64,000 nt of DNA from Endozoicomonas sp. OPT23 (GTDB lineage Bacteria; Pseudomonadota; Gammaproteobacteria; Pseudomonadales; Endozoicomonadaceae). This document shows, in pieces, positions 11,448 to 55,340 of this stretch. A program made the translations under genes and the position numbers. The notes beneath the pieces are model-generated. The model was not told the DNA's origin. It worked only from the letters and a program-made list of their open reading frames with translations, and did no database searches. The stretch lies in NCBI RefSeq assembly GCF_009653635.1, contig NZ_PPFD01000005.1, positions 372,001-436,000 on the forward strand, written 5' to 3'. Positions within the stretch are counted from its first letter, which is position 1. Each line of letters starts with the position of its first letter.

Positions 11448-11467
11448 TTTCGCTTATGGTGACTAAG
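11448..11467 (-). promoter_or_regulatory. Degenerate copy of the steroid operator before S1
   Basis: TTTCGCTTATGGTGACTAAG matches the shared motif CATCGTC-N6-GACTAAG at the TCG core and the whole GACTAAG arm, with the GTC of the left arm changed. It lies 27 bp before the ATG of the S1 operon, so it could overlap promoter or leader. The last bases also form the edge of a family A repeat, which weakens the argument. Confidence 0.4.
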
Positions 11468-36969: not shown

Positions 36970-37294
36970 CGTCTGGCTCTCCCGAAACGACCTCATTTCA
37001 TGCCGGCCGACAGTCTGCTTTCAACTACTATCACAGACTGAAATACAGCCACGCCTTTTGAAACAGGCATTTGAAAACAGGTTTCAAAACCAGTGTGTAA
37101 CTGACTCTTTACCTATCATTGACTGTGATTGATTAAACCGGCTGGGGGGAGAGCTATCATCGTCCGTGGAGACTAAGCAAAATAATGCCTGAGGAAGGGT
37201 AAAAAGAGGGGGTTAACCCCGATCATCGTAGATAATGATCAGGGCTCAGCTGATAAAAACAGCCTGAAGATTCTTCTTTCAATAGAACCAGAGG
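36970..37294. promoter_or_regulatory. Control region of operon S2 and terminator of the upstream gene
   Basis: This 325 bp region has no gene. It contains the shared operator at 37158-37177, a 9 bp inverted repeat TTTTGAAAC (37056-37064) with GTTTCAAAA (37081-37089), and, near its right end, GGGGTTAACCCC (37209-37220) and GATCAT/ATGATC (37221-37240). On the minus strand the last two are followed by CTCTTTTT and so probably terminate the secreted-protein gene at 37295. Confidence 0.6.
37158..37177 (-). promoter_or_regulatory. Shared steroid operator, S2 copy
   Basis: CATCGTCCGTGGAGACTAAG. The two arms are ATCGTC and GACTAA around 6 bases, an imperfect palindrome with core GTC-N6-GAC. It lies 189 bp before the S2 start codon. 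It is nearly identical to the S3 copy at 42415 (same arms, different spacer). Confidence 0.75.
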
Positions 37295-38371
37295 TTATTG
37301 AACAACCCAGACACCTTCAAAAACTGGAACCCGGTGCCCTTCTTTAGGGGACTCCAGATTATTCATCATATAAGCGATAGCAAATGACAGCTCATCACGA
37401 TCAAGAGTATCAAGCTTCACATCCATCATCAGCAATGGTGTCGGTGCTTTGTGTCCAATAAGATAACTGATGACCAGCTTACCTTCCGATTTACTGAGCG
37501 TAAAAAACTGGTGTTTGCTTTTACCACTGAATGCAACCAGATACGTTGGCTCATAGCGCTCGTCAAAAATTACCCTTTCCAAAATTTCACGAACAACTAA
37601 TATGTTGTTTTCAATATTACTTCGATCTTTAGCTTCTACCTGCTGCCTCAATTTCTCATAGGCTTTATCCGAAAAACCTTCTCCTGTTGTCATTTCTGAC
37701 CCATCTTCCGGTGTCAAAAATGCAGACAGCTCAATATTAAATTTCGAAGCTGAGCTAACCAGCAGTGAAGAGTAAAGACCCCCACCAAAAGTTACTGCCT
37801 GATCCAGTTCATCCGATGTTTTATAATGCTGCATTAACTCGACCAGATTCTGAACCTGAAATGAAGGGTAGTCGCTTGCAAAAGCATTAAGAACGGCATC
37901 AATTCCATCCTTTCCCGTATTGTACAAAACAGGCGTCACACTGGATGTGAAGAAGCTTGAAAAGAACACCTTGTTTCTATCTTTTTCTCCCCCAAACAAC
38001 GTAATAAGATCACTGACCGAATTTAATACAAAGCCATTTCCAGCTCTCTGTGACTTTCTCATGTCAGACACGATTGTGTTAGGTCTAATAATTGGAACTG
38101 ATGTCACTGTCCTGCTCATTTCACCAATCAATGGTGCTGATAGAGCTGGCAACGACACTGCATAGAGACCATCCATGTCCGAGTTGTAAGAATTGACTGT
38201 GTCCAGGTATATAAAGTCATTTCCAACACCTCCGGTAACATTCTCCTTTTGCGAATGCTTGGTGTAGAAAACATCAACCCCTAAACCATTATCATTCTCT
38301 TCCGCTTGCGCCAATGAAAAGGTAAGCAATTGCCCTACTATCAGTAATACGGGTAAATTTTTGTTACTCAT
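37295..38371 (-). CDS. Secreted protein of unknown function
   Basis: A 358-residue exported protein. I chose the ATG at 38371, after GGATGG, giving a signal peptide (SNKNLPVLLIVGQLLTFSLAQA). The mature protein has few cysteines, a Ser/Gly-rich middle (FGGGLYSSLLVSSASKF) and several predicted strands near the end (PTYLVAFSGKSKHQFFTL, GKLVISYLIGHKAP). No domain is recognised. It lies alone between steroid operons S2 and S3, with its own terminator, and is probably unrelated to them. Confidence 0.7.
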   Translation of the reverse strand: MSNKNLPVLLIVGQLLTFSLAQAEENDNGLGVDVFYTKHSQKENVTGGVGNDFIYLDTVNSYNSDMDGLYAVSLPALSAPLIGEMSRTVTSVPIIRPNTIVSDMRKSQRAGNGFVLNSVSDLITLFGGEKDRNKVFFSSFFTSSVTPVLYNTGKDGIDAVLNAFASDYPSFQVQNLVELMQHYKTSDELDQAVTFGGGLYSSLLVSSASKFNIELSAFLTPEDGSEMTTGEGFSDKAYEKLRQQVEAKDRSNIENNILVVREILERVIFDERYEPTYLVAFSGKSKHQFFTLSKSEGKLVISYLIGHKAPTPLLMMDVKLDTLDRDELSFAIAYMMNNLESPKEGHRVPVFEGVWVVQ

Positions 38372-38525
38372 AAAACCATCCTGATTTATCGAATTATTAA
38401 TTGGTTGGATAGGCTTCAGTCTTAAAAAGTTCACTTTAACCTCTTTTTCTTTTATTGCTCTCCAGCTTTCTGGTTAGGTAGTATCACCACTGTAACCGTC
38501 GACAAGGAAATTTCCTTTGGAAACA

Positions 38526-39146
38526 ATGAGATGGAATAAAGTAAGAAATCCCCTTGGCTATTTTGTCTTCGCCCATGGTGCTGGCGCCCCCATGGACAGT
38601 GAATTCATGGAGATCATGGTAAGTCTCCTCACTGAACGAGATATTTCAGTAGTTCGCTTTGAATTTCCCTACATGCAGGAACGCAGGGAAACAGGTAAAA
38701 AGAGGCCACCCGACCGTCAGCCAAAGTTACTGGCTTACTGGCAGGAGGTTCTCGATAAGGTAAAAAGCCAAACTAACTTACCTGTTTTCATTGGCGGTAA
38801 GTCTATGGGCGGGCGAATGGCTACTCTTCTGACCGCAGAGGGGGCCGAATCATCCGGCATCATCTGTCTGGGTTATCCTTTCTATGCTGCCAATAAGCAG
38901 GACAAACCTCGAACGGAGCACCTTGAGCATCTAGCAACGCCAACACTGATTATTCAGGGAGAGAGAGATACCATGGGCAATACCGACAATGTTACTAGCT
39001 ACCAGCTGTCTGAACAGATCAGCATAGAATGGCTGACTGATGGCAATCATGACCTGAAACCAAGAAAAGTATCAGGCTTCACTCATCAGCAACACCTTGA
39101 GTCAGCAGCGGATAAAATCGCTCACTTTATCCGAGCAAAAATTTAA
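38526..39146 (+). CDS. Alpha/beta hydrolase, KANL3/Tex30 type
   Basis: A 206-residue alpha/beta hydrolase. It has the N-terminal HGAGAPMDSEFM strand-loop typical of the KANL3/Tex30 (dienelactone-hydrolase-like) group, nucleophile elbow GGKSMGGRMA, PTLIIQGERDTMG (acid region) and DGNHDLKPRK (catalytic His). The substrate is unknown. It is not a convincing HsaD: HsaD belongs to the C-C hydrolase group and is longer. A perfect palindrome, AAGGAAATTTCCTT (38504-38517), lies just before the start. Confidence 0.88.
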   Translation: MRWNKVRNPLGYFVFAHGAGAPMDSEFMEIMVSLLTERDISVVRFEFPYMQERRETGKKRPPDRQPKLLAYWQEVLDKVKSQTNLPVFIGGKSMGGRMATLLTAEGAESSGIICLGYPFYAANKQDKPRTEHLEHLATPTLIIQGERDTMGNTDNVTSYQLSEQISIEWLTDGNHDLKPRKVSGFTHQQHLESAADKIAHFIRAKI

Positions 39147-39207
39147 ATCTCGCAACAGCAAAGAGTATGATCAGGTTCAGAAATAATTCATAAATGGAGT
39201 TGAGACA

Positions 39208-39471
39208 ATGGGTTCAAGCAACAGGATTTTTGGCGTTATTCCAAAAATACCCGCCAGATACAAACGTTTGGTGCCACCTTTTCTGATCTCTCTGTTTATG
39301 ACCTGTGTCGTGTCACTGATCAGCACCATTAAAAGCCTTGGTTTCAATTCCAATATTATCGAGCACTGGCCAATGGCATGGCTGCTTTCATGGTTGATTG
39401 CTTTTCCGGTATTACTGATTGTTCTGCCGCTGGTAGCGAAGCTGACGGGAAGAATTGTTGCAGAAGAATAA
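39208..39471 (+). CDS. Small membrane protein, DUF2798 type
   Basis: An 87-residue protein with two hydrophobic helices (about residues 22-40 and 55-77). The start IPKIPARYKRLVPPFLISLFMT and the WPMAWLLSWLIAFP segment fit the DUF2798 family, whose function is unknown. GGAG precedes the ATG. It follows the alpha/beta hydrolase in the same direction. Confidence 0.8.
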   Translation: MGSSNRIFGVIPKIPARYKRLVPPFLISLFMTCVVSLISTIKSLGFNSNIIEHWPMAWLLSWLIAFPVLLIVLPLVAKLTGRIVAEE

Positions 39472-39480
39472 AACGGATGA

Positions 39481-39509
39481 GAAAGGCACAGAAAAAGACT
39501 GAGCCTTTC
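39481..39509. terminator. Hairpin between DUF2798 gene and ipdB
   Basis: GAAAGGC (39481-39487) and GCCTTTC (39503-39509) pair around a 15-base loop in the 58 bp between the convergent genes. The T content on either side is modest. Confidence 0.45.
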
Positions 39510-39529
39510 ATTGCGTTATTAACCAGCTA

Positions 39530-40333
39530 TTAAGAACGATTCCCTGGAGGGTTATCCTTAAGCTGTTTTGAACGCAGATTATGCGGATCCAGCTGACGGA
39601 TAACTGATAATTGCTCTTCAGTAGGTGCTGCTGTTACTGCAACCGTATCCGGCACATAAACGTCAAAGCCAGTATTTTCCAGAACCTGCTCAACCGTAAT
39701 ACCCGGATGCAGACTGAGAAGCTGCAACTGATGATCGGGGCCATTCCAGTCCATCACACCAAGATCTGTAATCACCAGGCGTATATCAACGTCGTCCAGC
39801 TTGTAGCCCTTAGGCAAACGCTCAGGGTTGTAGCCAATGGACGCCACCATGTCGCACTCACCTTCTACAAATACCCTCTTGTTATGGCTGGGTACGAAAA
39901 AGCTGTTGCCATGACTGATGGAATTGCCCGGAAAACCACGAACGCCCAGCATCTGAACCTTTGGCTGCTCATAGCTGCCACCCAGGGCAGATATGTTCGC
40001 CTGACCGAATTTATCGATCTGGGTTGGTCCTACCATGGCGTGACGCTTGCCACTCCAGACATTATCAAAAATGCGTGAGAAGCCCATCCAGGTTTCATTC
40101 TTCTGGACATGGTCTTCACCACGATTACCAACCGGATTCGGTTCTGACAGCAGGAAAGCTTCAGAGTCTGTCATCATCAGGTCAGTATTGCTGGTTTTCA
40201 TTGCCAGACTGGCAGCCAGTCTCGGAATCAGGCCAATACCTGTCGCCAGCACTTCGCCGTCATTTTTAAAGGCTTCTGAACCTGCACAAATCAGCAGTTC
40301 TGCGAGGGTATAGTCTTTAGCCGGTGTACTCAT
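39530..40333 (-). CDS. ipdB: IpdB, beta subunit of ring C hydrolase
   Basis: A 267-residue class I CoA-transferase-fold protein that partners IpdA. IpdAB hydrolyses the last ring of COCHEA-CoA, not a transferase reaction. I chose the ATG at 40333, which lies 8 bp from AGGAG; the ATG at 40339 is too close. Segments include AGSEAFKNDGEVLATGIGLIPRLAA, LMMTDSEAFLLSEPNPVG, and GFPGNSISHGNSFF. It is adjacent to ipdA with a 14 bp gap. A distinctive C-terminal tail is about 15 residues longer than in mycobacteria. Confidence 0.92.
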   Translation of the reverse strand: MSTPAKDYTLAELLICAGSEAFKNDGEVLATGIGLIPRLAASLAMKTSNTDLMMTDSEAFLLSEPNPVGNRGEDHVQKNETWMGFSRIFDNVWSGKRHAMVGPTQIDKFGQANISALGGSYEQPKVQMLGVRGFPGNSISHGNSFFVPSHNKRVFVEGECDMVASIGYNPERLPKGYKLDDVDIRLVITDLGVMDWNGPDHQLQLLSLHPGITVEQVLENTGFDVYVPDTVAVTAAPTEEQLSVIRQLDPHNLRSKQLKDNPPGNRS

Positions 40334-40347
40334 AGTCATAACTCCTG

Positions 40348-41223
40348 TTAATAAACCGGCAACGGCTGTTGCTTGATAGCTGCCAGACCGCCGACTTTTT
40401 CCTGATACTCTTCTTCAGTCGTATTTTTGATGTACTTGTCAAAATACGCCTCAAAACCACCCTCTTTCGCAGATGCGTTGTATTCCTTGAAGTGCTTAAC
40501 ATCAAAGCCATACAGAGGAGTACAGGACGATGGATGAGCGCCACCAGGAACCAGGCTGACACCCGTGGTCATGGAGCGCTCCCAAAGCACATAGCGTGAT
40601 TCTTCAGGGTTATTGAAGTAATCGCTCTCCACCAGTTCATCACAGGTAACAAAGGTCTTGTTAGCAGCACGGGCAAACCAGTCATCCATGTAATGATCAT
40701 TACCCTTGATCTGACAAACACCACGCGCATCTGCACGGTCTACATGAAGCAGAGATACATCCAGCTTCAGTGCAGGCATAGCCACCCACTCTTTTTCATC
40801 GTAAGGGCTTTCGATGACTTTCAGCTCAGGATTAACCTTTACCACGTCAGTTCCTAGACCAATCTGTGTAGGAATATAAGGACAACCCCAGGCTGCAGCA
40901 CGCAGACCCAGCAGCATCATACCTTCATCAATTTCCATGGTCTCAATCTCGCCTTTCTGACGAGCCTGACGGAAATAAGGTTCCAGCGGAATAAAGTCCA
41001 GAGAAACAAAAGCAAAGACAACCTTCTTCACTTTACCCGCCGCACACAGCATGCCGACATCAGCACCGCCATAAGCGACAACGGTCAGATCTTTAACATT
41101 GGAACGAAGAATCTCACGAATCAGCGCCATCGGCTTACGACGAGGCCCCCAGCCACCAATACCGATGGTCATACCATCGCGCAGCTCACCGACGATGTCC
41201 GCCGTGGTCATGCGTTTATCCAT
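40348..41223 (-). CDS. ipdA: IpdA, alpha subunit of ring C hydrolase
   Basis: A 291-residue CoA-transferase-fold subunit. The N-terminal GIGGWGPRRKPMALIREIL is the IpdA signature, followed by VVAYGGADVGMLCAAGKVKK and GTDVVKVNPELKVIESPYD. With IpdB it opens ring C in the HIP pathway, giving a diketo-diacid CoA for the FadA6 thiolase. Length matches known IpdA. It is the middle gene of S3, downstream of hsaC and a family B element. Confidence 0.94.
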   Translation of the reverse strand: MDKRMTTADIVGELRDGMTIGIGGWGPRRKPMALIREILRSNVKDLTVVAYGGADVGMLCAAGKVKKVVFAFVSLDFIPLEPYFRQARQKGEIETMEIDEGMMLLGLRAAAWGCPYIPTQIGLGTDVVKVNPELKVIESPYDEKEWVAMPALKLDVSLLHVDRADARGVCQIKGNDHYMDDWFARAANKTFVTCDELVESDYFNNPEESRYVLWERSMTTGVSLVPGGAHPSSCTPLYGFDVKHFKEYNASAKEGGFEAYFDKYIKNTTEEEYQEKVGGLAAIKQQPLPVY

Positions 41224-41304
41224 ACTTACACCTTTTTATTTTTTTAGCCCAACCCCAAACCTAAAAAGAAGGAGGCAGTGGCTTCAAATCAACTTGATAG
41301 GGAG

Positions 41305-41396
41305 GGTTTCAGGTTTGCTTTTCAAAGGCCAGGGATGGCCTGCTAGCGAATCGATGCAGGAAAGCATCGTTGAGCGGAAAAGTTAACCTGAAAACC
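41305..41396 (+). repeat. Family B paired-hairpin element, copy 2
   Basis: Located between hsaC and ipdA in operon S3. The outer arms, GGTTTCAGGTTTGCTTTTC (41305-41323) and GGAAAAGTTAACCTGAAAACC in part (41376-41396), are imperfect complements. The inner hairpins are GGCC-AGGGAT-GGCC (41327-41340) and CGATGC-AGGAAA-GCATCG (41352-41369), with the linker TGCTAGCGAAT and the tail TGAGCGG. Linker, loops and tail match copy 1, while stem sequences differ but keep pairing. Confidence 0.75.
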
Positions 41397-41415
41397 GGAA
41401 ACTAAATCGCAAACA

Positions 41416-42312
41416 TCACTGACGACCAGCAGAAAAATCATGTCCCCAGAGACTTACTGAGCTGCTCTCGAACGTAGTATGACGATCCCAGTCAACGACA
41501 AGACCACCACAGCCGTATTCCATATCAAAACCGCCTGGAGTCTTCATATAGAAAGAAACCATTTCGTCGTTGGTGTGCTTACCCAGAGTTGCAGACAACT
41601 GAACACCATGGGCTTCCATACGGTCCATGGCACGACCTACATCATCCATCTCTTCTACTTCCAGCATCATATGGACACAACCGGATGGAATCGGGCATTC
41701 AAAAATAGCCAGAGAATGGTGGCGACCGTTGTTTACATGGAGGAAGTGCAGACGCTTCTCAGGCTCGGCAGGGTCATCGGTAAACCTAACCTTCATCAGA
41801 TCTGACATGCCAAAACCCAGTACATCGGTATAAAACTCACGACTGGTTTCGAAGGAAGGGGTTGGCAGAACGGTATGACCCAGACCAAGATCAGTGGTTA
41901 CAAACTTCGTAACGCCTACAGGGGAAATAAACTGTTTGAAGTCCTGAACCGGGCCCCAGTAAATTTCGTGACGATTACCATCAGGATCATTGAACTTAAC
42001 CAGCGCCTGCACCATTCTGGCAGCGGCTTCCTCTTCACTGCCAACCACTGTTTCAACATCAGCCGCTTCGAGTTCAGAGACCGCTTGTGCAAAGGCTTCC
42101 GGGCCAGCCACTTCCCAACCGGATACACCATAGCCATCACGATCGGATTTTACGACAGCAATGCGGAAGTTACGTTCATCCATCTTCAGGTAGAGAGTAT
42201 TGTCGTCTGAAGCTTCATGCTCCATTAATCCCAATACCTGAGTGCCGTACTCCTGCCATTTGGCAAGATCGGTTGTTTCTACGATCGTATAACCCAGTCC
42301 ACGAATATCCAT
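41416..42312 (-). CDS. hsaC: HsaC, 3,4-DHSA extradiol dioxygenase
   Basis: A 298-residue type I extradiol dioxygenase with two VOC domains. HsaC cleaves the catecholic A ring of 3,4-DHSA (4,5-seco product) using Fe(II). The expected ligands are visible: His146 in GLGHTVLP, His214 in CVHMMLEV and Glu265 in DMEYGCGG. Length and ligand positions match HsaC; BphC-like enzymes for biphenyl are the alternative, but the context of ipdAB and hsaAB decides. It opens operon S3, with the shared operator 103 bp upstream. Confidence 0.93.
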   Translation of the reverse strand: MDIRGLGYTIVETTDLAKWQEYGTQVLGLMEHEASDDNTLYLKMDERNFRIAVVKSDRDGYGVSGWEVAGPEAFAQAVSELEAADVETVVGSEEEAAARMVQALVKFNDPDGNRHEIYWGPVQDFKQFISPVGVTKFVTTDLGLGHTVLPTPSFETSREFYTDVLGFGMSDLMKVRFTDDPAEPEKRLHFLHVNNGRHHSLAIFECPIPSGCVHMMLEVEEMDDVGRAMDRMEAHGVQLSATLGKHTNDEMVSFYMKTPGGFDMEYGCGGLVVDWDRHTTFESSSVSLWGHDFSAGRQ

Positions 42313-42645
42313 GGTCGCCCAGCCTCTTATTCTTATGATTCAGCTGAGAAGGCTGGCAGTGCCAAAAACCTTCTCCGAACTGTCACCGATTAAAAAGGTA
42401 GAGGCAATATTGATCATCGTCTGAGGGGACTAAGGGAAATAGTCTTAATCGAACCTACAAAACACATCAGAAATAACTTAAGCTATTGATTATCAGAATG
42501 AATTAAGTATCCTGACGTAAAAAAGAAACATATAAAAACGTGCGGCTAAAAAAACATCAAACTCTGCCTAAATTGGATTGAAGCAGATCTGCTGCATTTT
42601 GTTTCTGTTTCATTGAGCCAGAAATAATAAGGACATTTCATCTCT
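42313..42645. promoter_or_regulatory. Divergent control region between S3 and CHASE2 gene
   Basis: This 333 bp gap contains the shared operator (42415-42434). CCAGCC and GGCTGG near 42318-42357 could form a weak leader hairpin just before hsaC. The right part is AT-rich and presumably holds the CHASE2 promoter. No gene is visible. Confidence 0.5.
42415..42434 (-). promoter_or_regulatory. Shared steroid operator, S3 copy
   Basis: CATCGTCTGAGGGGACTAAG, identical to the S2 copy in both 7-base arms. The preceding bases TGAT are shared in part (ATGAT on the minus strand). Position is 103 bp upstream of the hsaC start. Confidence 0.75.
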
Positions 42646-44001
42646 GTGGTTAAAGCAGCACAACTTATCCAGCCTTTAAAAGACAGATACCCGGTTTTTG
42701 TCTTTATCTGCCAAAACCTGTTTCTCTCGGTATTAATAGCTGTTCTGAATCCATTCGGTCTCAGCGATTACACTGATCATTACACTCAATCAATGATTGC
42801 CCGCTTTGCAGCACCTTTCTATGACAATAAAGGTCAGAGCGAAGTTGTTGTCGTTCAGATAAACGACCAGGTTTTACGAGAGCTGAATCAGTCATGGCCG
42901 CTCAGCTATGGTGCTCATGCACGCTTTCTCAGGCAGATTATTTCCTATCAGCCAAAAGCCATTTTTGTCGATTTTATATACAGCCAGGACAGAGATCCAA
43001 AAGGGCTGAACAGTCTCAAAAGGTTGCTGGAAAAATATAATGACCCGGCAGGCAATAGCCCTGTTTTTATTGCCGATGTGATTCGCGATGGCCAAAGCCC
43101 ACTGCTTCCGGAACTGCAGGGCGACATACTACGCTCACAAATTCACTGGTCTGGCTATAGCAGCCAATACCCTCTGGAGCTTTCCAGTTCTGATTCAGTA
43201 TCTAATACTCCGGCGCAGGATTTATACAAAGTCTATTGCAACAAGGCTTCCTGCTCTGACACTCAGTGGCTTTCTGATCCCGCTCCTATGACACTGTACT
43301 GGGGAACAAGAACTGACCCGATTATGGATCATGTCACTGACACCACAGAATGCCGAACTTACGATGCCGGCTCCTTCGGAAATATAGCCGAGTCTGCAAG
43401 GCTGCTATTCACCAATACTTTTATGGGTTTATATAACAGCGATAGCCTTGATAAAGCGACTAGACAGTCCTGCCCTTATTCCCGATACCTTTTTGCCCAT
43501 CAGTTACGTTTACGCATGGACACTACGGAAGAACTACTCAAAGATAAGATTGTTATTTTCGGCGGTTCTTTTACAGGGATACCCGACTTTGTTCAAAGTC
43601 CGGTTCACGGCCAGATTCCCGGTATGTTTATGCACGCAATGGCCGTTGATAACCTGATTACCCTTGAGCAAGATTATTTAAAAGAACCTGAAGCCATCAC
43701 TTCATTATCTGTCTTCAGCTGGGCAGACCTGATTGAACTGTCGCTGGTTGCTCTGCTTCTTTGGTTTATCGCCTTCATTGCCAAAACACACTGGTTAGCC
43801 TCCCTGCCTCACAAGCTGATTTTGTTTTCAGGAATTTTCACCGTCATCCTGATAACCGCGATGGCAATGAGCCTGCTACTAAATTATTCACCGGTCAATG
43901 TGATTGGAATACTGCTGCTTATGACTTATGCCATATCAGTGTCTGGTGAGGTTGAATCTGAAGTCATTACCGATAACCAGGAAATACAGGAAAACCCATG
44001 A
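42646..44001 (+). CDS. CHASE2-domain membrane protein without kinase
   Basis: A 451-residue protein starting with GTG. A first hydrophobic helix (FICQNLFLSVLIAVLNPFGL) is followed by an extracytoplasmic CHASE2 domain (about 50-350: VVVVQINDQVLRELNQSWPLSYGAHARFL, KAIFVDFIY, IVIFGGSFTGIPDFVQSPVHGQIPGM) and a C-terminal set of helices (SLVALLLWFIAFI and two more) with a short acidic tail. CHASE2 proteins usually carry a cyclase, kinase or PP2C output domain; here none follows. Its stop overlaps the next gene (ATGA), so it works with the small periplasmic protein and the M48 protease. Confidence 0.9.
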   Translation: MVKAAQLIQPLKDRYPVFVFICQNLFLSVLIAVLNPFGLSDYTDHYTQSMIARFAAPFYDNKGQSEVVVVQINDQVLRELNQSWPLSYGAHARFLRQIISYQPKAIFVDFIYSQDRDPKGLNSLKRLLEKYNDPAGNSPVFIADVIRDGQSPLLPELQGDILRSQIHWSGYSSQYPLELSSSDSVSNTPAQDLYKVYCNKASCSDTQWLSDPAPMTLYWGTRTDPIMDHVTDTTECRTYDAGSFGNIAESARLLFTNTFMGLYNSDSLDKATRQSCPYSRYLFAHQLRLRMDTTEELLKDKIVIFGGSFTGIPDFVQSPVHGQIPGMFMHAMAVDNLITLEQDYLKEPEAITSLSVFSWADLIELSLVALLLWFIAFIAKTHWLASLPHKLILFSGIFTVILITAMAMSLLLNYSPVNVIGILLLMTYAISVSGEVESEVITDNQEIQENP

Positions 44002-44366
44002 CCTGCATAAAAGCCCTCGCCCTAGCTGCCACAATACTCTTCACCGGCATAGCATACGCCGATGAGTCAGTCATCGTAAAAGGTTATGCCGTTGAGAATA
44101 TTGGTGTCTATGACCGTGAAGGCAACTGGCTCAGAGATGCAAGTACCAGCACCTTGCCAGCACCTGTGACGGCTACCGCCTTCGACCCTGATCTGGGCAT
44201 GGTAAGAATTACAGCTAACGGTAAAGAGCTGTGGCTGGATACTCTCGAACTCAGCCTTAACCGTAAACCTACTGTTGCCTGGAGCTGCGCGACTGCCAGC
44301 ACTACGCAATCCGCCGACTCTACAACCGGTGGTGTCATGGGTCTGGGAGACCTCTGTAATAAGTAA
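43998..44366 (+). CDS. Small periplasmic protein in CHASE2-M48 module
   Basis: A 122-residue exported protein with a signal peptide (KALALAATILFTGIAYA). The mature part has a VIVKGYAVENIGVYD segment and RITANGKELWLDTLEL, a beta-rich SH3-like look, and two cysteines (WSCATAS, DLCNK). It starts within the stop of the CHASE2 gene (4 bp overlap). Family unknown to me; the overlap argues for a structural partner. Confidence 0.75.
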   Translation: MTCIKALALAATILFTGIAYADESVIVKGYAVENIGVYDREGNWLRDASTSTLPAPVTATAFDPDLGMVRITANGKELWLDTLELSLNRKPTVAWSCATASTTQSADSTTGGVMGLGDLCNK

Positions 44367-44407
44367 CCCGCTCCAAACAGACAAGAACAATATCAAGAGA
44401 AGCAAGA

Positions 44408-46111: not shown

Positions 46112-46119
46112 CACCCAAT

Positions 46120-46149
46120 GCAGCAGCCTTTAGATTATTTGGCTGCTGC
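46120..46149 (+). terminator. Terminator after M48 gene
   Basis: GCAGCAGCC (46120-46128) and GGCTGCTGC (46141-46149) form a 9 bp GC-rich stem, 8 bp after the stop, followed by AATTTCC. Further small hairpins (CTCTC/GAGAG near 46185 and AAGACAAT/ATTGTCTT near 46252) lie before cstA. Confidence 0.65.
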
Positions 46150-46350
46150 AATTTCCTATACCGATAACCCTACCTCTTCCTGCTCTCAAAGCCTTTAGAG
46201 AGCAAGTACTACTACTTAATTTAAAGCTGAAAAGCTTTACAGGTTAATTAAAAGACAATCTTATTGTCTTCTGTCAATTTTATGTAAAGCATCGAGGATT
46301 ACACTGCGCGGGATTTTTCTATTCATCATTGGTGATGTCAGAGGTATCCC

Positions 46351-47781: not shown

Positions 47782-47791
47782 TTACGCAATC

Positions 47792-47819
47792 ATGACAGAG
47801 AGCTTTCCCTCTCTGTCAT
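47792..47819. terminator. Bidirectional terminator after CstA
   Basis: ATGACAGAGAG (47792-47802) and CTCTCTGTCAT (47809-47819) form a perfect 11 bp stem with a 6-base loop. It follows the cstA stop by 10 bp and overlaps the stop codon of the convergent DOPA-dioxygenase-like gene. Confidence 0.8.
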
Positions 47820-48166
47820 TTCAGAACCGATAGATTAATTTCAACCGGCTTCCCCAACCAGTAAGCGTATTCAGTGTGATCCCTAAGATCGTTGCCGGTA
47901 TCACCATGCACAAGCACTGATAACCCTTTTCTGTTTTCTTCCAGCCATGGAATCAGCGCATCGAAATCTTTCGCAGCGAACAGTATCTGACAGCTCCAAC
48001 GAGTATGTGGACCAACCAGCTTTTGATGAACCCGCCCAACCTTTAATCCAAATTTTTCTCCGGCAGAGCTGAAAAACTGTGAAGCATAGTCCACAGTTTC
48101 CGCATCAAAATAGACATGCGCATGATAAAAGTCATGAGCATTCACCGGTCGCTTTATGCCACTCAT
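47816..48166 (-). CDS. DOPA 4,5-dioxygenase family protein
   Basis: A 116-residue protein with the family landmarks FYHAHVYFD, GRVHQKLVGPHTRWSCQILF and LSVLVHGDTGNDLRDHTEYAYWLG, the His residues being the metal ligands. Plant and fungal homologues cleave DOPA extradiol rings; the bacterial substrates are unknown. It stands alone and is not one of the steroid ring-cleavage enzymes. Confidence 0.9.
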   Translation of the reverse strand: MSGIKRPVNAHDFYHAHVYFDAETVDYASQFFSSAGEKFGLKVGRVHQKLVGPHTRWSCQILFAAKDFDALIPWLEENRKGLSVLVHGDTGNDLRDHTEYAYWLGKPVEINLSVLK

Positions 48167-48228
48167 AAGACAGCCTTTATATTTTAAAACTGTCTTTTAG
48201 CAAAACATTCCAGCAAGAGCCAGCAGCA

Positions 48229-48540
48229 TCACTCAGAGGATTCTTCGGTTGATCCTTCTGCCTCTTCGACTTCCGGTTCAGCTTCCTCTACGACAGGTTC
48301 ATCCTTTTTTAACGAAGCTTCAACCACTGGCAAAATTTCCTTATCCAGAAAAATTTCCAGATCCTTCATCATGATTTCCTTTACCGGTCCCAGATCCGTT
48401 TCAGAGTCCTCCTCAAGGCTACCGGCGTTCACGATATGCACCAGCTCTGTCACTATTTCAGTCAGGCTGGGGGCAAGCTTTTCCTTAAGTTTGGGTAGAA
48501 TCAATCCAAGCTGAATTCTAAAGGCAATATCATCAGACAT
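48229..48540 (-). CDS. Small acidic protein of unknown function
   Basis: A 103-residue protein from the ATG at 48540 with GAGGTC upstream. The body is helical and leucine-rich (FRIQLGLILPKLKEKLAPSL), and the last 25 residues are almost entirely Glu, Val, Pro and Ser. No signal peptide or known domain. It lies 62 bp downstream of the DOPA-dioxygenase-like start, in the same direction. Confidence 0.6.
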   Translation of the reverse strand: MSDDIAFRIQLGLILPKLKEKLAPSLTEIVTELVHIVNAGSLEEDSETDLGPVKEIMMKDLEIFLDKEILPVVEASLKKDEPVVEEAEPEVEEAEGSTEESSE

Positions 48541-48921
48541 AACGAGAAGACCTCGTAACAAGAAGGGTCAAAAAGGCTTTTTCAATATAGCAGCCTGCAG
48601 CTATTTCTGGTGTTTCTATTCTCCGGTACCCGTGATGAGCCAGGAGAGAAAATCAGTAGCTATAACTCTGTGCTGATTTCCAGTCACCCGTGCTTTTGGA
48701 GCATGAACCCGCACTGCCTTGCCTAAAAACGACTGTCGATATTACCAGGTAGCTCATAAGTAAGGATTAGCTGAGTAGCTCTATAGCAGATAAGGCGGAA
48801 TATTCAGAACTATAGCCTTAGGACGAAAATTTTGATTGCAGAGTATTAAATGGTAATTAATAAATAGTTAAGGCATTTGAATCTATAATTGCTTCAAATT
48901 AACAATTCAGAGTTCATCAGA
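48541..48921. other. Gap with a coding-like remnant
   Basis: No gene starts here. On the minus strand, 48616-48741 is open for 41 codons between stops and reads protein-like (LGKAVRVHAPKARVTG, then ATDFLSWLITGTGE), without a start codon or ribosome binding site. It may be a fossil of a longer gene. The right part is AT-rich and precedes the next plus-strand gene. Confidence 0.35.
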
Positions 48922-49695
48922 GTGCTTTTAAAAAGTCTTCGCCTCTTTTTGCTTCTTGCACTAGTTTTCATAAACGTCACCATAAACATTAGTGCTTCTG
49001 AAGTAAGCGACCCTGAAGGCAGTGTCTACTCTGCAAGTAACACAACATCAATGGGCAGCCAACTGTATAGATGGGTTTACGATACTGCAGGAGTATTTTC
49101 AGGCGCCAAATTTGGCGCTGTGAGTTATGACTTTGTCAGCCAACAGCTGTCAGAACTCGTCCTCCCTAATGCAGCTATTTATTATCATGACTTAACTAAT
49201 CAGTATTTACGTGAAAATCAGTTTCCATTAAGAACTCATTCTATTTTAATAATAATAAAGACAGGCACAACCCTGGCAGGAGCAGTAATCGGATTGATAT
49301 ATGCTGATGATTATTATGAGCACTCCTTAGAACAGATATATCTATTGGAACAACAATCTCAAGAAAAAATTAATTTTATCTGGTCCATGGCAGGAGGCAT
49401 GACTGGATATTTATTCATCCCTGTTTTAGACAGAATTCTTGATCAGAATATGCAAAGAGTAATGAATGAAGTTCAGAACAATCATAGGCAGAACAATCAA
49501 AGACAGAATAATGATTTCATTCCGGTTGGGGTAAGAATAATACTTCCAAAAGAGGCGGGGTTTGTTATTGGCGCGTTACTGGCATGGTCATTTTCAACTT
49601 ATGCAAGGTACCCTATTCTTATCGCGCTGGCCGTACTTATTTACCAACTACCTCCAGATCAAACGCCTATTCATGCCATTGATGAACTCGACTGA
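48922..49695 (+). CDS. Membrane protein of unknown function
   Basis: About 257 residues from the GTG at 48922 (a TTG at 48889 gives a longer form). It begins with a strong hydrophobic segment (SLRLFLLLALVFINVTINISA) that may be a signal peptide. Later hydrophobic segments are IIIKTGTTLAGAVIGLIYA, FIWSMAGGMTGYLFIPVL and a C-terminal AGFVIGALLAWSF plus LIALAVLIYQL. An Asn/Gln/His/Arg-rich stretch (NNHRQNNQRQNN) lies near residue 200. No family recognised. Confidence 0.6.
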   Translation: MLLKSLRLFLLLALVFINVTINISASEVSDPEGSVYSASNTTSMGSQLYRWVYDTAGVFSGAKFGAVSYDFVSQQLSELVLPNAAIYYHDLTNQYLRENQFPLRTHSILIIIKTGTTLAGAVIGLIYADDYYEHSLEQIYLLEQQSQEKINFIWSMAGGMTGYLFIPVLDRILDQNMQRVMNEVQNNHRQNNQRQNNDFIPVGVRIILPKEAGFVIGALLAWSFSTYARYPILIALAVLIYQLPPDQTPIHAIDELD

Positions 49696-49730
49696 AGACT
49701 GTCAAAACCCAGTGATTTTGACAGTCTTCA
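49693..49730. terminator. Strong bidirectional terminator
   Basis: TGAAGACTGTCAAAA (49693-49707) pairs perfectly with TTTTGACAGTCTTCA (49716-49730), 15 bp with an 8-base loop. It includes the stop codon of the membrane-protein gene and lies 10 bp from the end of the S4 operon. Confidence 0.85.
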
Positions 49731-49740
49731 GAGCGTCAAA

Positions 49741-51324
49741 TTAACTGGCTTCAGCCAGAATCATGGCTGCGCACTTCTCACCGATCATGATAGAAGGCGC
49801 GCTGGTGTTACCACCAATCAGCTTCGGCATGATAGAAGCATCCGCTACACGCAGGCCTTCAATACCTTTCACCTTTAGCTTCTCATCAACAACAGCCATT
49901 TCATCCTGCCCCATTTTACAACTGCCAACAGGGTGGTAAACAGTCTCGGAAATTCGGGCAATCAGATCACGAACAGAGGCTTCATCGGTCTTTTCCAGGC
50001 TCGGGGTAATCGGACGACGAATATAACGCGACCAGGCACGGGTATTCGCCATATCCAGAGTGATTCGCAGCGCTTCTTTTAACTTGTCCCAGTCGTGTTC
50101 GTTATCCAGCACATTGAAATCAATTTCCGGAGCAACAAATGGGTCAGTATTTTTCAAAATAACATGACCGCGGCTTTCAGGGCGCAGATTGCAGCCCTGA
50201 ATGGAAATACCCGGCGTCAATGGCAGAGTCTCGGTTAGGGAGGCCATATAACTGGGTGAAAAGTGGAACTGAATATCAGGGCGATCAAGCTCCGGACGAC
50301 TCTTAACAAAAGCACCGCCTTCCATACCACTGAAAGCACCCAGACCTTCTTTTTTGAACATCCACTCCATACCTACCTTGGCATTAGCAGGGAAACGGTC
50401 CATGCCATTCATGCTGCAGGTTGGGTCCACTTCATAGTTGACGTGCAGGTCAAGGTGTTCCTGCAGGTTATAGCCGACACCTGGCAACTCATGAATGGTT
50501 TTAACACCAGCTGCGCTCAGATCACTTTCACGACCAATACCGGACAACTGAAGAATATGAGGACTCTTGATGGCACCGGCACTGATAATTACTTCACGGG
50601 TAATGGTCGCCTTTTCATACTTACCCTTGATGCGGTATTCAACGCCAGTTACTCGCTTACCCATAACAATAACGCGGGTAACATCAGCACCCGTCAGTAC
50701 GGTCAAATTTTCACGTTTAAGAGCCGGGCGAATAAAGGCTTCTGCAGAGCTGGAACGAACCCCTTTACGAATAGTAGTCTGATACAGACCAATACCTTCC
50801 TGATCTTCACCATTGAAGTCATCGCTCTCTTTAATCCCTATTTCTTTACCGGCTTCAATAAAGGCATCAAAACCAATGTGGCCGGTACCGCCATTGCTGA
50901 CGTACATTTCACCGTCATCACCATGATATTTGCTGGAACCACGCTGATTGGTTTCACTCTTCTTGAAGTAAGGCAGAACGTCTTCATAGCTCCAGCCTTC
51001 GTTACCTTCAGCAGCCCAACCATCGTAATCGGAAGCATGGCCACGCACATAGATCATGCCATTTACAGCACTGGATCCACCCAGAGTCTTACCACGAGGT
51101 ACTGACAGCCTTCGATTAGCCAGATTTTCCTGGCGGGTAGAATTCATATGCCAGTTCAGCTTCTGGCTTTTCAGAGCCTCGGCACAGCCACCGGGCATGT
51201 CGACGGTCATGTCATTTTTGGGACCGGACTCCAACAGCAACACCTTGTTGCGAGGATCAGCAGAAAGACGGTTTGCTACAACACAACCCGCAGAACCGGC
51301 ACCAACAACTATATAATCGTACAT
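49741..51324 (-). CDS. GMC-family FAD-dependent alcohol dehydrogenase/oxidase (S4)
   Basis: A 527-residue GMC oxidoreductase. I used the ATG at 51324 (MYDYIVVGAGSAGCVVANRL), with the FAD P-loop VVGAGSAG at the start. It has GGSSAVNGMIYVRGHASDYDGWA (GMC signature 1), SGAIKSPHILQLSGIG (signature 2), HPVGSCKMG with the active-site His, and RVADASIMP. It is like choline-dehydrogenase-type GMC enzymes rather than cholesterol oxidase. As the last gene of S4 it may oxidise an alcohol group on a steroid or side-chain intermediate; the substrate is unknown. Confidence 0.88.
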   Translation of the reverse strand: MYDYIVVGAGSAGCVVANRLSADPRNKVLLLESGPKNDMTVDMPGGCAEALKSQKLNWHMNSTRQENLANRRLSVPRGKTLGGSSAVNGMIYVRGHASDYDGWAAEGNEGWSYEDVLPYFKKSETNQRGSSKYHGDDGEMYVSNGGTGHIGFDAFIEAGKEIGIKESDDFNGEDQEGIGLYQTTIRKGVRSSSAEAFIRPALKRENLTVLTGADVTRVIVMGKRVTGVEYRIKGKYEKATITREVIISAGAIKSPHILQLSGIGRESDLSAAGVKTIHELPGVGYNLQEHLDLHVNYEVDPTCSMNGMDRFPANAKVGMEWMFKKEGLGAFSGMEGGAFVKSRPELDRPDIQFHFSPSYMASLTETLPLTPGISIQGCNLRPESRGHVILKNTDPFVAPEIDFNVLDNEHDWDKLKEALRITLDMANTRAWSRYIRRPITPSLEKTDEASVRDLIARISETVYHPVGSCKMGQDEMAVVDEKLKVKGIEGLRVADASIMPKLIGGNTSAPSIMIGEKCAAMILAEAS

Positions 51325-51411
51325 ACAACACACCCTGTTATTTTTGCGTGAATTATTCACACGCTCATGGCTTCTTATTCTTGTTCTATACGGCAACTGT
51401 TAAAACTGAAA

Positions 51412-53004
51412 TCAATTCTTCAGCAGTTCAGTCGCACGATCCCTTAATTCAAACTTCATGACTTTTCCGGACGCATTCAGTGGCAGGCTGTCAACAAACT
51501 GCACATAGCGAGGCACTTTATAATTCGCCATTTCTGCACGACACCACTGAATCAATTCATCCTGATTCAACTGATCATCCTGTTTGGTAATGACCCAGGC
51601 CATACCGACTTCACCCAAACGCTCATCAGGCACGCCGACAACTGAAACCTGAGCAATAGCTTTATGGCTGTTCATATGATTTTCGATTTCTGCCGGATAA
51701 ACATTAAAGCCACCGGAAATAATCATGTCTTTCATACGATCGGTGATTCGCAGATAACCGAGAGAGTCCATAATGCCGATGTCACCGGTATGTAACCAAC
51801 CGTCCTTATCAACAGTTTCCTGAGTGGCAGCCTCGTTATTAAAATAACCCTGCATGACATTATGACCGCGGATGACCACCTCACCCGGTGTACCTCTGCG
51901 AACTTCATGACCAAACTCATCAATACAACGAACTTCAACATCAGGCATGGCACGACCGGACGTATTGGCAATCAACTCCGGTGAATCACCTTGACGACAG
52001 ATGGTGCCAAAGCCACAGACTTCGGTCAGACCATAAGCTGTAATGATGGTATCGAAACCCAGCACCTCATCCATTTCCCGAATCATACTGACCGGAATAG
52101 CCGCTGCACCGGTAACCGCCACACGCAGGGAACTGATGTCAAAAGAGTCACGCTGAGGATGGGAAAGAATGGATTGATAAAGAGTAGGCGGCCCTGGCAG
52201 TACAGTAATTTTTTCGTCGGATACCTTCTGCAGAATGGTCGGCACGTCAAACACCTGCAATGGCAAAATGGTGCAACCACGCATTAGAGCCGCCAACCAA
52301 CCTGCCTTGTAACCAAAGGAATGAAAGAAAGGGTTAACAATGAGGTAACGATCACTTTCCTCAATTCCTACCACTTCACCCCAGTCAGCCACTACCTTCA
52401 GATTCTGTGCATGCTGGGTAATAACACCTTTTGGCTTGCCGGTAGTGCCAGAGGTAAACAACAGGTCAGACATGGTTTCTGAAGTAACCATCGACTGTCG
52501 TTGTTCTACCTGCTGCTGATCAATACCTTCCGCCTTCTGCAGGAAAGCAGACCAACTAATGGCAACCGGATGAGCAGACGTTTCCTGACGGAACAATACA
52601 ATCTGCTCCAATTCAGGAAGATCTTCGCTGATCAACATGGCCGGATAATCAGCACCCAGAAAATCACCGATGGAAAACAGTACTCTTGCACCGGAAGCCT
52701 TTAGCACATAGCCTGCTTCCGAGCCTTTCATACGAGTATTAAGGGGAACCAGAGCAGCACCAACAGTTTGCAACGCAGTGGCTGCAACCACCCATTCCCA
52801 GATATTCGGTGCCCAGACTGCAACCCTGTCACCCTGCTGAACATTCATTACCAGCAAGGCAGCTGCGGCCTGTCTACGCAGCTCATTCAGTTGCGAGTAG
52901 CTTATTATATGACCTTCGTCTTCTATAGCAGATCGATCCTGATATTGATCAGCCACAAAATCGATTAACTGGGGAATTGTCTGACACTGGGTGACATCGG
53001 CCAT
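51412..53004 (-). CDS. fadD3: FadD3-type HIP-CoA ligase
   Basis: A 530-residue AMP-forming acyl-CoA ligase. FadD3 activates HIP, the two-ring propionate left after A/B-ring cleavage, as its CoA thioester. It has the P-loop-like TSGTTGKPKGV, the NPFFHSFGYKAGWLAALM segment and VLPGPPTLYQSIL, typical of FadD3, then TAYGLTEVCGFGTI, WLHTGDIG and SGGFNVYPAEIE, ending at LPLNASGKVMKFEL with the catalytic Lys. AGGA lies before the ATG. It follows the KshB-like gene in S4 after a 207 bp spacer full of hairpins. Confidence 0.92.
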   Translation of the reverse strand: MADVTQCQTIPQLIDFVADQYQDRSAIEDEGHIISYSQLNELRRQAAAALLVMNVQQGDRVAVWAPNIWEWVVAATALQTVGAALVPLNTRMKGSEAGYVLKASGARVLFSIGDFLGADYPAMLISEDLPELEQIVLFRQETSAHPVAISWSAFLQKAEGIDQQQVEQRQSMVTSETMSDLLFTSGTTGKPKGVITQHAQNLKVVADWGEVVGIEESDRYLIVNPFFHSFGYKAGWLAALMRGCTILPLQVFDVPTILQKVSDEKITVLPGPPTLYQSILSHPQRDSFDISSLRVAVTGAAAIPVSMIREMDEVLGFDTIITAYGLTEVCGFGTICRQGDSPELIANTSGRAMPDVEVRCIDEFGHEVRRGTPGEVVIRGHNVMQGYFNNEAATQETVDKDGWLHTGDIGIMDSLGYLRITDRMKDMIISGGFNVYPAEIENHMNSHKAIAQVSVVGVPDERLGEVGMAWVITKQDDQLNQDELIQWCRAEMANYKVPRYVQFVDSLPLNASGKVMKFELRDRATELLKN

Positions 53005-53033
53005 TGCACGGTTCCTGTTATTATTCTTTGCCT

Positions 53034-53086
53034 GTGATGACTGTCGTTTTTGTTAACTATGTTTTTTGTTAACTCGCAGTCATCAC
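53034..53086. repeat. Hairpin with GTTAAC direct repeats
   Basis: GTGATGACTG (53034-53043) and CAGTCATCAC (53077-53086) form a 10 bp stem. The 33-base interior has two copies of TTTTTGTTAACT. It lies between fadD3 and family A copy 5 in the S4 spacer. It could be a transcript-stabilising hairpin, an attenuator or an operator. Confidence 0.55.
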
Positions 53087-53110
53087 TGATGCTTCTGGCT
53101 GCCTGACTGC

Positions 53111-53204
53111 TTAAATATGTATAGACATACAAAATCAAATTCCGGACGGCTATTTTCCCGCCTTTGGCGAGAACATAGCCTATGATTTTGTGCGTCCAAC
53201 AACT
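53111..53204 (+). repeat. Family A hairpin repeat, copy 5 (diverged)
   Basis: A 94 bp copy between the KshB-like gene and fadD3. The stem is GGCTATTTTCCCGCC (53148-53162) with GGCGAGAACATAGCC (53166-53180), 15 bp with two mismatches, loop TTT. The right half (TAGCCTATGATTTTGTGCGTCC) matches copy 1 (TAGCTTATGATTTCGTATGTCC). The left end is more diverged. Confidence 0.7.
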
Positions 53205-53211
53205 CAGGTTA

Positions 53212-54300
53212 TCAGTCAGGAAACTTTACGGTCAGATCGCCACTGACCGGATGACACTGACAGGCCAGTGTCCAACCTTCATCCACTTCTTCCTGCTCAA
53301 GAATCTGGTTGATGCCAAGACTGGTTTCACCGCCTTCTACAGAACACATACAGGCGCCACACATTCCTTTTTCACAGGAAAACGGTGCTGCAATTCCAGC
53401 CTTCAACATGGATTGCAGCACGGTATCGCCAGATTCATGAGCCACCTGATAGTTCTCACCATCCAGTTCAACCTTAAAGCCAGTAACCGTAGAGCTTTCA
53501 GCGGCAGCAGCTGCTTCTGCTTCCAGAGCTGCTTCCTGATCAGGATCAACCGGTGAAGAGAAACGCTCGACATGGATTCTGGAACGGTCTTCACCCTGCT
53601 CCAGCAGAGAGGACTCAACCGTATCCATAAAGGGACCAGGGCCGCAGATATAGAACTCTGCACCGTCACTGCCTGCGGTAGCACCCTTCACCATCTGCCT
53701 GCTGACAAAGCCGTGAATACTGTCGTAAACATAAATCACCGAAAGGCGATCGATGTATTTGTGCTCCATCTTCTTCAGTTCTTTACGGAAGATAACGGAC
53801 TGCTCATCACGGTTGGCGTAAACCAGCTTAACTTTGCGATCTGTTGTGGTCAGCGCCGATTTAAGAATTGAGATAACCGGTGTAATACCAGAACCACCAC
53901 CAAACAGAACAATATCGTTAGTGCCTTCATTCAGATAGAAGAGACCTGCTGGCGGCATAACTTCAATGCGATCACCTGGTTTAACTTCGTCGTTAATCCA
54001 GTTAGAAATACGACCACCGTCAACACGTTTGATCGTTACCTTATGCACATCATCCACATCCGGCGAGCTGGCCAGCGAGTAACAGCGAATCAATTCCTGC
54101 CCATCAAAAGGGACTTTCAGAGTCAGAAACTGCCCCGGCAGGTAATCAAAATCATCCTGATAGTCGCCAGGTACCGAGAACACTACTGACTTACTGTCGT
54201 GGGTTTCAGTAATAACGTCGGCCACTTCCAGATTATGGTAGCGTGAGCCTGTCATTTTATCTTCGGCTGTTGCTTCTTCTATCAATATTTCTTCGGCCAT
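53212..54300 (-). CDS. kshB: KshB-like ferredoxin reductase (S4)
   Basis: A 362-residue reductase with ferredoxin-NADP-reductase domains followed by a plant-type 2Fe-2S domain. I chose the ATG at 54300, which follows GAGAAG. It has the FAD motif RCYSLASSP, the NAD pocket LFGGGSGITPVISIL and the iron-sulfur ligands in CEKGMCGACMCS with a fourth Cys in TLACQC. KshB feeds electrons to KshA in 3-ketosteroid 9alpha-hydroxylation. PaaE, the phenylacetyl-CoA reductase, has the same domains, but the cluster is steroid-specific. KshA itself is not here. The Glu/Ala-rich linker (about 265-285) is notable. Confidence 0.85.
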   Translation of the reverse strand: MAEEILIEEATAEDKMTGSRYHNLEVADVITETHDSKSVVFSVPGDYQDDFDYLPGQFLTLKVPFDGQELIRCYSLASSPDVDDVHKVTIKRVDGGRISNWINDEVKPGDRIEVMPPAGLFYLNEGTNDIVLFGGGSGITPVISILKSALTTTDRKVKLVYANRDEQSVIFRKELKKMEHKYIDRLSVIYVYDSIHGFVSRQMVKGATAGSDGAEFYICGPGPFMDTVESSLLEQGEDRSRIHVERFSSPVDPDQEAALEAEAAAAAESSTVTGFKVELDGENYQVAHESGDTVLQSMLKAGIAAPFSCEKGMCGACMCSVEGGETSLGINQILEQEEVDEGWTLACQCHPVSGDLTVKFPD

Positions 54301-54360
54301 AGCACTTCTCATATCTACTACTGGTGAGGGCTTCATGTGTGCACGTTTTTATTCTTTATT

Positions 54361-54861
54361 TCAGGCTTCAGCAGCTTCAACGGAGGCGTAACGTCCATCA
54401 ACGTACAACAGCGGATTTACGTCATCACTGTTTTTAATTTCTTTCACTTTGCCAATAAATATCGTATGCGTGCCGTACTCATAACGACCGTCCTGTTCAA
54501 GCACTACCACAGACTGAGCGTCTTTCAGGTAAGGCAAACCAGCAGTTGTTTCTGTCCAGTTACCCACGGTAAAACGTTCTTCACCTTTCAGCTTGCCACC
54601 ACAGGCTGCAGAAACTTCCTGCTGATCATTTCCCAAGACGTTAATGACGAAGTCACCACCGTTATCCAGCGCCTGATGCATGCCTGTAGATTTGTTCACA
54701 CATACCAGCAATGAAGGTGGGTCCATGGACAGAGAGGTAACAGAAGTGGCCGCCATTGCATGCTTTTCATTATCACCGACAGCAGTAACCACTGATACGG
54801 AACTGGCCAGACGGCGCATCGATTGAAGCATGTCATTACGCAGCTGTTCAGAATTACTCAT
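54361..54861 (-). CDS. hsaB: HsaB, flavin reductase of the 3-HSA monooxygenase
   Basis: A 166-residue flavin reductase domain protein that supplies reduced FMN/FAD to HsaA. It shows RRLASSVSVVTAVGD, AMAATSVTSLSMDPPSLLVCVN, and a C-terminal LLYVDGRYAS. AGGAAC precedes the ATG. It is the first gene of S4, 60 bp before the KshB-like start, and divergent from hsaA across a 479 bp control region. Confidence 0.92.
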   Translation of the reverse strand: MSNSEQLRNDMLQSMRRLASSVSVVTAVGDNEKHAMAATSVTSLSMDPPSLLVCVNKSTGMHQALDNGGDFVINVLGNDQQEVSAACGGKLKGEERFTVGNWTETTAGLPYLKDAQSVVVLEQDGRYEYGTHTIFIGKVKEIKNSDDVNPLLYVDGRYASVEAAEA

Positions 54862-55025
54862 AGCCTGTTCCTTTTTATTATTTGCATACTGATCAACCCA
54901 ACAATACGACGATCAATATCTCTTTCGTTCTTGGCTAATTATTGTCAACAGTCGAGCTTGAGACTGCTGAGAGAAAAATAACCGAAATTGATGATCAGAA
55001 TTGTTCCCTTGCTCTCGTCAACAAA

Positions 55026-55045
55026 CATCGTCCATCAAGACTAAA
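55026..55045 (-). promoter_or_regulatory. Shared steroid operator, hsaB/hsaA copy
   Basis: CATCGTCCATCAAGACTAAA. The left arm is identical to the S2 and S3 copies and the right arm differs only in its last base. It lies 165 bp before hsaB and 296 bp before hsaA. The orientation relative to hsaB is the same as in S2 and S3. Confidence 0.7.
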
Positions 55046-55146: not shown

Positions 55147-55340
55147 ATAGAGTTATATGTATCAATGTTTTTGGGATCAGCAAAAATCCAATGGTCCATT
55201 TGAAGGATGAGAGAAAACCTATGCCTTGTTTCAATTTCAGCAGCGGGCTCTCTATGTAAAAGAAAGCCCGACAACTTTTGCCTGCAGCGCCGGCAGTAAA
55301 AAGAACAAGATGGCCTGAGGTATGCACTGGAGAGAATAAT

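Follow-up and report, generated by a model that had tools for sequence, protein, structure and literature searches.

Boxes and genes in the window

The window analysed here is a stretch of 64,000 nucleotides from Endozoicomonas sp. OPT23 (contig NZ_PPFD01000005.1, positions 372,001 to 436,000), which carries genes of steroid-ring degradation. Upstream of these genes a short sequence, CATCGTC-N6-GACTAA (referred to here as the box), was present in three exact copies at 37158-37176, 42415-42433 and 55026-55044 (plus strand as written), which confirmed the three near-identical copies reported in a preliminary description of the window. The distances between boxes 1, 2 and 3 and the first minus-strand open reading frame (ORF) of the respective operon were 162, 103 and 165 bp. 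Sites were scored with a matrix of the box plus a -10 element, on which the 35 source sites described below reached 33.5 to 53.1.

Box 1 (TTAGTCTCCACGGACGATG, 37158..37176, minus strand) was exact, had a score of 52.2 and stood before operon S2, the first gene of which (36082..36996, -) encodes an enoyl-CoA hydratase of the PRK08290 type (crotonase family). A -10-like TTTAAT (37132..37137, -) lay 20 nt past the box, and a weak -35-like ATGATA overlapped the end of the box. The same 19 bases were found before the orthologue in genome G001. Box 2 (TTAGTCCCCTCAGACGATG, 42415..42433, -) was exact as well, with a score of 42.6 and a -10-like TTTAAT at 42389..42394 (-), and preceded hsaC and two CoA-transferase-like genes. 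The extradiol dioxygenase gene hsaC itself (41416..42312, -) gave 322.6 bits at a curated cut-off of 450.

Box 3 (TTAGTCTTGATGGACGATG, 55026..55044, -; exact, score 37.6) was accompanied by a -10-like AACAAT at 55000..55005 (-). Downstream of it were genes for HsaB, a KshB-like reductase, a FadD3-type ligase and a GMC oxidoreductase. The flavin reductase gene at 54361..54861 (-) matched RutF best (111.6 bits) and HsaB with 94.6 bits, all below the cut-off, and was named hsaB because of its position next to hsaA. The oxygenase subunit gene hsaA (55341..56525, +) gave 389.3 bits for the ORF 55278-56525, the curated cut-off being 450. All copies had been described as running the same way relative to the minus-strand gene. 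The single orientation held, but the third site, which had been assigned to hsaA, lies between the divergent genes hsaB (-) and hsaA (+) and faces hsaB. From the -10-like elements, transcription starts are predicted near 37125 (box 1), 42382 (box 2) and 54993 (box 3).

A putative weak fourth box (ATGGTCCATTTGAAGGATG, 55191..55209, +) faces hsaA, opposite to box 3, and is followed by TTCAAT at 55230-55235. Its score was 11.0; a reversed control over 2.84 million positions contained seven matches scoring at least 10 and none scoring at least 12. Comparable weak boxes face hsaA in the genomes G001, G005 and G008 (scores 13.4, 14.3 and 19.0).

A further, degenerate copy had been proposed before operon S1 at 11448..11467 (-). 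It scored -15.5 on the matrix and was rejected as a site. The spacing of the layout would place its transcription start within its own gene, and the 400 bp upstream of the G001 orthologue (92.8% identical gene) contained no site, the best score there being -10.6.

The window also contains a TetR-family regulator gene at 2322..2924 (+), TetR-type by Pfam. A 39-amino-acid (aa) open frame at 4191-4292 (+) was 85% identical to residues 164-198 of this protein and is, judged from the match, a partial duplicate of its C-terminus.

Occurrence in the genome and in the family

A scan of the whole genome (4,936,507 bases) without mismatches yielded five copies, all on contig C26 in a single orientation and all 5' of steroid-type genes. 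Three of these are the window copies; the others were located at C26:281366 before an SDR gene and at C26:349146 before hsaD. In this genome the exact motif thus stood only before steroid-type genes, and the reversed pattern had no exact match. When three mismatches were allowed, no excess was detected in the window (12 found, 13.55 expected), and the genome gave 872 matches for the motif versus 2,424 for the reversed control. The signal was confined to the exact copies: chance was rejected for these and accepted for matches with two or three mismatches. Among the one-mismatch matches in the genome, two were taken as chance: one (C28:302869) lies within a mutS-like ORF of 871 aa and the other (C12:533909) within an ORF of 325 aa. 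A further such match was found at C30:111602.

Orthologous promoters in related genomes also carried the site. Together with the genome scan, this supports the earlier proposal that the copies represent a common regulatory site in a steroid regulon. The exact motif was present in 10 of 36 genomes of the family, and these were the same 10 that encode HsaC (Fisher p 3.9e-9; all Fisher p values given here ignore the relatedness of the genomes). Seven of the 21 non-family genomes had HsaC without the motif, and one (G041) had a single copy without HsaC. A scan with two mismatches matched 46 of the 57 genomes and returned mostly noise. The presence of a clear HsaC in 10 of 36 family genomes contrasts with a 2025 review, which states that steroid-utilisation genes were found in no Endozoicomonadaceae genome (PMC12491435; this and the other papers are cited here from extracts).

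The gene hsaA was split in two in G031 (C1:5240957-5243343, with about 1.2 kb between the pieces) and in G005 (C2:3715069-3715759); the splits are a sign of possible pathway decay. In G007, a genome without HsaC and without the LuxR-type protein described below, a box-like ATAGTCCTGATGGACGATGATCCG was located inside an opposite 724-aa ORF (C1:460579; L182:10001). This copy is a remnant or a chance match.

Consensus and promoter layout

For the consensus, 35 exact copies from the 10 family genomes were used. A total of 36 had been found, and one inside a coding ORF (G026 C2:780203, L074) was omitted. The gene-strand consensus was TTAGTCYYNNYRGACGATGAT. As TTAGTC and GACGATG were fixed in the search, the free positions are YY, WYR, the following AT and the downstream element. 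The KstR2 operator of actinobacteria is of the CAAG..CTTG type, and the difference from that site noted in the preliminary description was borne out by this consensus.

A dyad of about 20 bp was common to the promoters considered co-regulated (35 exact sites). The arms had been described as inverted about 6 bp; a dyad is indeed present, but it is limited to T-N-GTCY-N4-RGAC-N-A, and the right arm continues as GATGAT. An AAT followed the box at a distance of 23 nt in 29 of the 35 sites and at 24 nt in four, while the mean at other offsets was 0.75; the remaining two sites had CATTAT at this position. If this AAT belongs to the -10 element, the dyad would be centred at about -42.5, the ATGAT of the extended right arm would lie at -35, and the spacer would be 17-18 bp long. 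Such a predicted layout is that of a class II activator site. A weak -35 inside the right arm would also explain both the lopsided palindrome and the common direction of all copies.

In 34 of the 35 cases an ORF of at least 80 aa started on the same strand within 400 bp, and the last site borders the end of its sequence piece. By our own reading, the genes following the boxes encode HsaC, HsaB, HsaD or HsaE, a crotonase or CoA-transferase, and an SDR or flavoprotein. In G034 (L085) and G035 (L080) a box stood 73 bp upstream of a gene for a 494-aa protein without an assigned role. A second LuxR paralogue was also seen in these genomes: in G035, 59% identical and about 8 kb away, and in G034 on another contig.

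Candidate LuxR-type regulator

A gene for a LuxR-type regulator of about 377 aa (C26:282345-283472) is located outside the window, at a distance of about 1 kb from the C26:281366 box. Nine of the 10 motif genomes encode the protein, versus none of the 26 other family genomes (E 1e-10; p 1.1e-7). In G005, G008, G034 and G035 its gene is oriented divergently from a gene with a box, and in locus L060 it stood between hsaF and other genes. Two LuxR proteins were scanned with Pfam; GerE was present in both (27.2 and 25.9 bits, cut-off 23.5) and PAS in one. Profile matches in the PDB were solely to DNA-binding domains of the LuxR/NarL/GerE type and covered the C-terminal domain only. Among the ORFs shared by at least 7 of the 10 genomes, the LuxR protein was the only regulator recognised, by eye and by reference BLAST, in the regions around boxes that were examined; Pfam was applied to part of these shared ORFs.

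Boxes in the order and the class

The search of the order covered 390 genomes and found TAGTCYNNNYRGACGATG in 26 of them (55 hits). The LuxR protein was encoded in 20 of these 26 versus 47 of the 364 others (p 3.7e-12), and HsaC likewise in 20 of the 26 (p 1.4e-10). Eight genomes had at least three copies, and all eight contained both the LuxR protein and HsaC. By our own count the reversed control gave 23 hits in 20 of the 390 genomes, with a maximum of two each. Single hits in the order are therefore close to background and mean little. At the level of the class, a match was obtained in 11 of 370 genomes, and apart from G000, the genome of the window, only G609 stood out. It had five copies, three of them with a relative of HsaA, HsaC or an SDR downstream. 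The 11 hits in the other nine genomes lay in 3-kb loci in which no reference steroid protein was found.

A single conserved copy, TAGTCCACTTGGACGATG, was observed in 10 genomes of family f28 (G105, G163, G187, G208, G247, G266, G285, G304, G322 and G356). It preceded an acyl-CoA dehydrogenase gene in the four that were inspected (G105, G187, G247 and G285).

Boxes in named records and on plasmids

In Pseudomonas sp. 8AS, CTAGTCCCATTGGACGATG was located about 90 bp upstream of hsaC. Two more boxes, of which one had a right-arm mismatch, occurred within 21 kb, and a LuxR protein with 56% identity was encoded as well. Of the 41 plasmid records with a match to the LuxR protein, eight were examined. 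On plasmid pVa1 of Vibrio alfacsensis an exact box was located 58 bp before a VOC-family gene, which was followed by genes for a CoA-transferase and an enoyl-CoA hydratase; because of this gene order the VOC-family gene is putatively taken as hsaC. Further exact boxes were found before an electron transfer flavoprotein gene and at 11231 of L271, and a one-mismatch box preceded an HsaA-like gene (45%). A cluster of steroid-type genes, its boxes and a LuxR homologue thus lie together on one plasmid (L268, L271), and it may be that pathway and switch travel together in this way.

The plasmid of Caballeronia sp. SBC2 had exact boxes 62 bp before a relative of HsaC (58%) and 63 bp before a relative of HsaA (52%), and a third within an opposite ORF. 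Reversed controls for the plasmid stretches of Vibrio and Caballeronia gave no match with up to two mismatches. One-mismatch boxes were present in Burkholderia arboris and in Sphingobium TomTYG64, in the latter about 55 bp before an annotated 3-ketosteroid-9-alpha-monooxygenase gene. The plasmids of Sphingobium TomMM15, C. necator N-1 and S. herbicidovorans had no box with up to one mismatch.

Relation to known regulators of steroid degradation

A LuxR-type protein, TeiR/TesR, has long been named as an activator of steroid degradation in Comamonas and is described as a positive regulator (PMC6895838, PMC8700777, PMC6678751, PMC8399759, PMC12239570). Like TeiR/TesR of Comamonas testosteroni, the candidate has a C-terminal LuxR-type helix-turn-helix and a gene near steroid genes, and it would likewise be expected to activate several steroid operons. 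It differs in that TeiR of Comamonas was described as a polar membrane kinase. The protein probably belongs with TeiR/TesR. P. stutzeri Chol1 has two TeiR-like genes, and deletion of one delays the degradation of cholate (given as unpublished data in PMC8399759). In the literature searched, which mostly did not include subscription papers, no binding site of TeiR/TesR was found, and this is no proof of novelty.

Class II activator sites of the lux-box type are dyads of about 20 bp with their centre near -42.5 and an overlap with the -35, as is predicted for the box. The sequence of the lux box is different, however, and as far as the Pfam scan shows, the proteins considered here have PAS and no autoinducer domain. 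The occurrence of a single short site before many steroid operons resembles the KstR and KstR2 regulons. Whereas those are governed by repressors of the TetR type, the linked regulator is here LuxR-type and the site is embedded in the promoter. EdcR of Caenibius tardaugens, an estrogen-dependent repressor, likewise has a palindrome that is shared among the promoters of a proteobacterial steroid pathway. Its site TnnCnnTACnAnTnGTAnnGnnA overlaps the -10 and differs from the box in sequence, position and sign of control (PMC8700777). According to a 2021 review, regulation in bile-acid-degrading Proteobacteria is largely unknown, and KstR1 and KstR2 are described for Actinobacteria (PMC8399759).

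Proposed mechanism and alternatives

The box is very probably an activator box of the steroid regulon, placed inside the promoter and used by a LuxR-type protein. It appears quite likely that each copy is such a site in a sigma-70-like promoter and that the protein encoded at C26:282345-283472 is its activator. The computed evidence consists of the sites, the genes next to them, the distance to the -10-like element and the joint occurrence with HsaC and the LuxR protein; binding, activation, transcription starts and ligand are predictions. A dimer of the PAS/LuxR-type protein of about 377 aa, a probable functional relative of TeiR/TesR of Comamonas, would occupy the dyad T-N-GTCY-N4-RGAC-N-A near -42.5. 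The right arm would overlap the weak -35 (ATGAT), followed by the spacer of 17-18 bp and a -10-like W-N-A-A-T. When the activator is absent, the poor -35 would hold the promoter low. When it is present, in response to a steroid or a steroid breakdown product, it would contact RNA polymerase at -35 (class II) and turn on together the operons of steroid-ring degradation, namely hsaC with the CoA-transferase genes, hsaB, hsaD, the crotonase/acyl-CoA dehydrogenase operon and the SDR gene.

Several observations speak against this proposal. Many of the 35 sites are orthologous and hence not independent, a sigma-70 promoter would not usually have an invariant A at -8, and beyond the family an AAT at 23 or 24 nt was found in only 12 of 27 rows (one site being listed twice). 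In the order the exact box was absent from 47 of the 67 genomes with the LuxR protein and from 59 of the 79 with HsaC. In the family, G031, in which hsaA is split, has an exact box and no LuxR match, and the LuxR proteins of G020 and G026 are just 35-36% identical and encoded away from most boxes. A simple recognition-helix code was also not supported, as G042 and G199 have NTARAHLR without a box.

The preliminary description had called the site an operator, with the TetR protein (2322-2924) as binder. A repressor operator in the style of KstR2 would agree with the TetR repressors that govern steroid regulons in Actinobacteria (PMC8399759, PMC8700777), and the TetR gene lies in the same gene region as the boxes. 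Orthologues of this protein (55-84% identity) were restricted to motif genomes (p 0.0036), but they were found only in G000, G001, G006 and G008. In a search at E 1e-10, six of the 10 motif genomes (G005, G020, G026, G031, G034 and G035), all with an exact box, had no match of at least 55% identity. The TetR protein is therefore not conserved with the site, unlike what would be expected for a KstR2-type regulon, and is an improbable candidate for the protein that binds all copies. Activation agrees better with the constant distance to the -10 and with a weak -35 overlapped by the box. Together with the linked LuxR-type regulator, these features point to an activator site instead of a repressor site, and control by this TetR protein is considered highly improbable.

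The LuxR-type protein could also bind the box as a repressor or dual regulator, since the box overlaps the predicted -35 and a LuxR-type repressor of 3,17beta-hydroxysteroid dehydrogenase has been reported for C. testosteroni (PMC8700777). However, TeiR/TesR was reported as a positive regulator (PMC6895838, PMC6678751), and a -35 as poor as ATGAT leaves little to repress, so that this alternative is rated as improbable. A similarly low probability is given to use of the site by a different regulator, or by a specialised sigma factor that recognises box and -10 as one promoter, with the LuxR gene as a mere fellow traveller. The right arm and the -10-like element are conserved as in a promoter, a box of this kind is absent from many genomes that encode a related LuxR protein, and the hunt for further regulators covered only the regions examined around the boxes. 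On the other hand, the dyad indicates a dimer, and no regulator besides the LuxR protein was recognised among the widely shared ORFs of these regions.

Significance

With a defined box, a promoter layout and a candidate protein, the control of the steroid genes becomes directly testable. Slightly favoured is the broader proposal that one promoter-embedded box serves LuxR activators of the TeiR/TesR class across Alpha-, Beta- and Gammaproteobacteria, as the counterpart of the KstR and KstR2 sites. The box may have moved together with the pathway, as it was found on plasmids of Vibrio and Caballeronia. If the box is shared across Proteobacteria, steroid regulons could be read directly from genomes. 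According to reports on symbionts of the Endozoicomonas type, these bacteria degrade coral steroids or convert them (PMC4781883, PMC12491435), and the proposed switch would thus bear on the sensing of host steroids.

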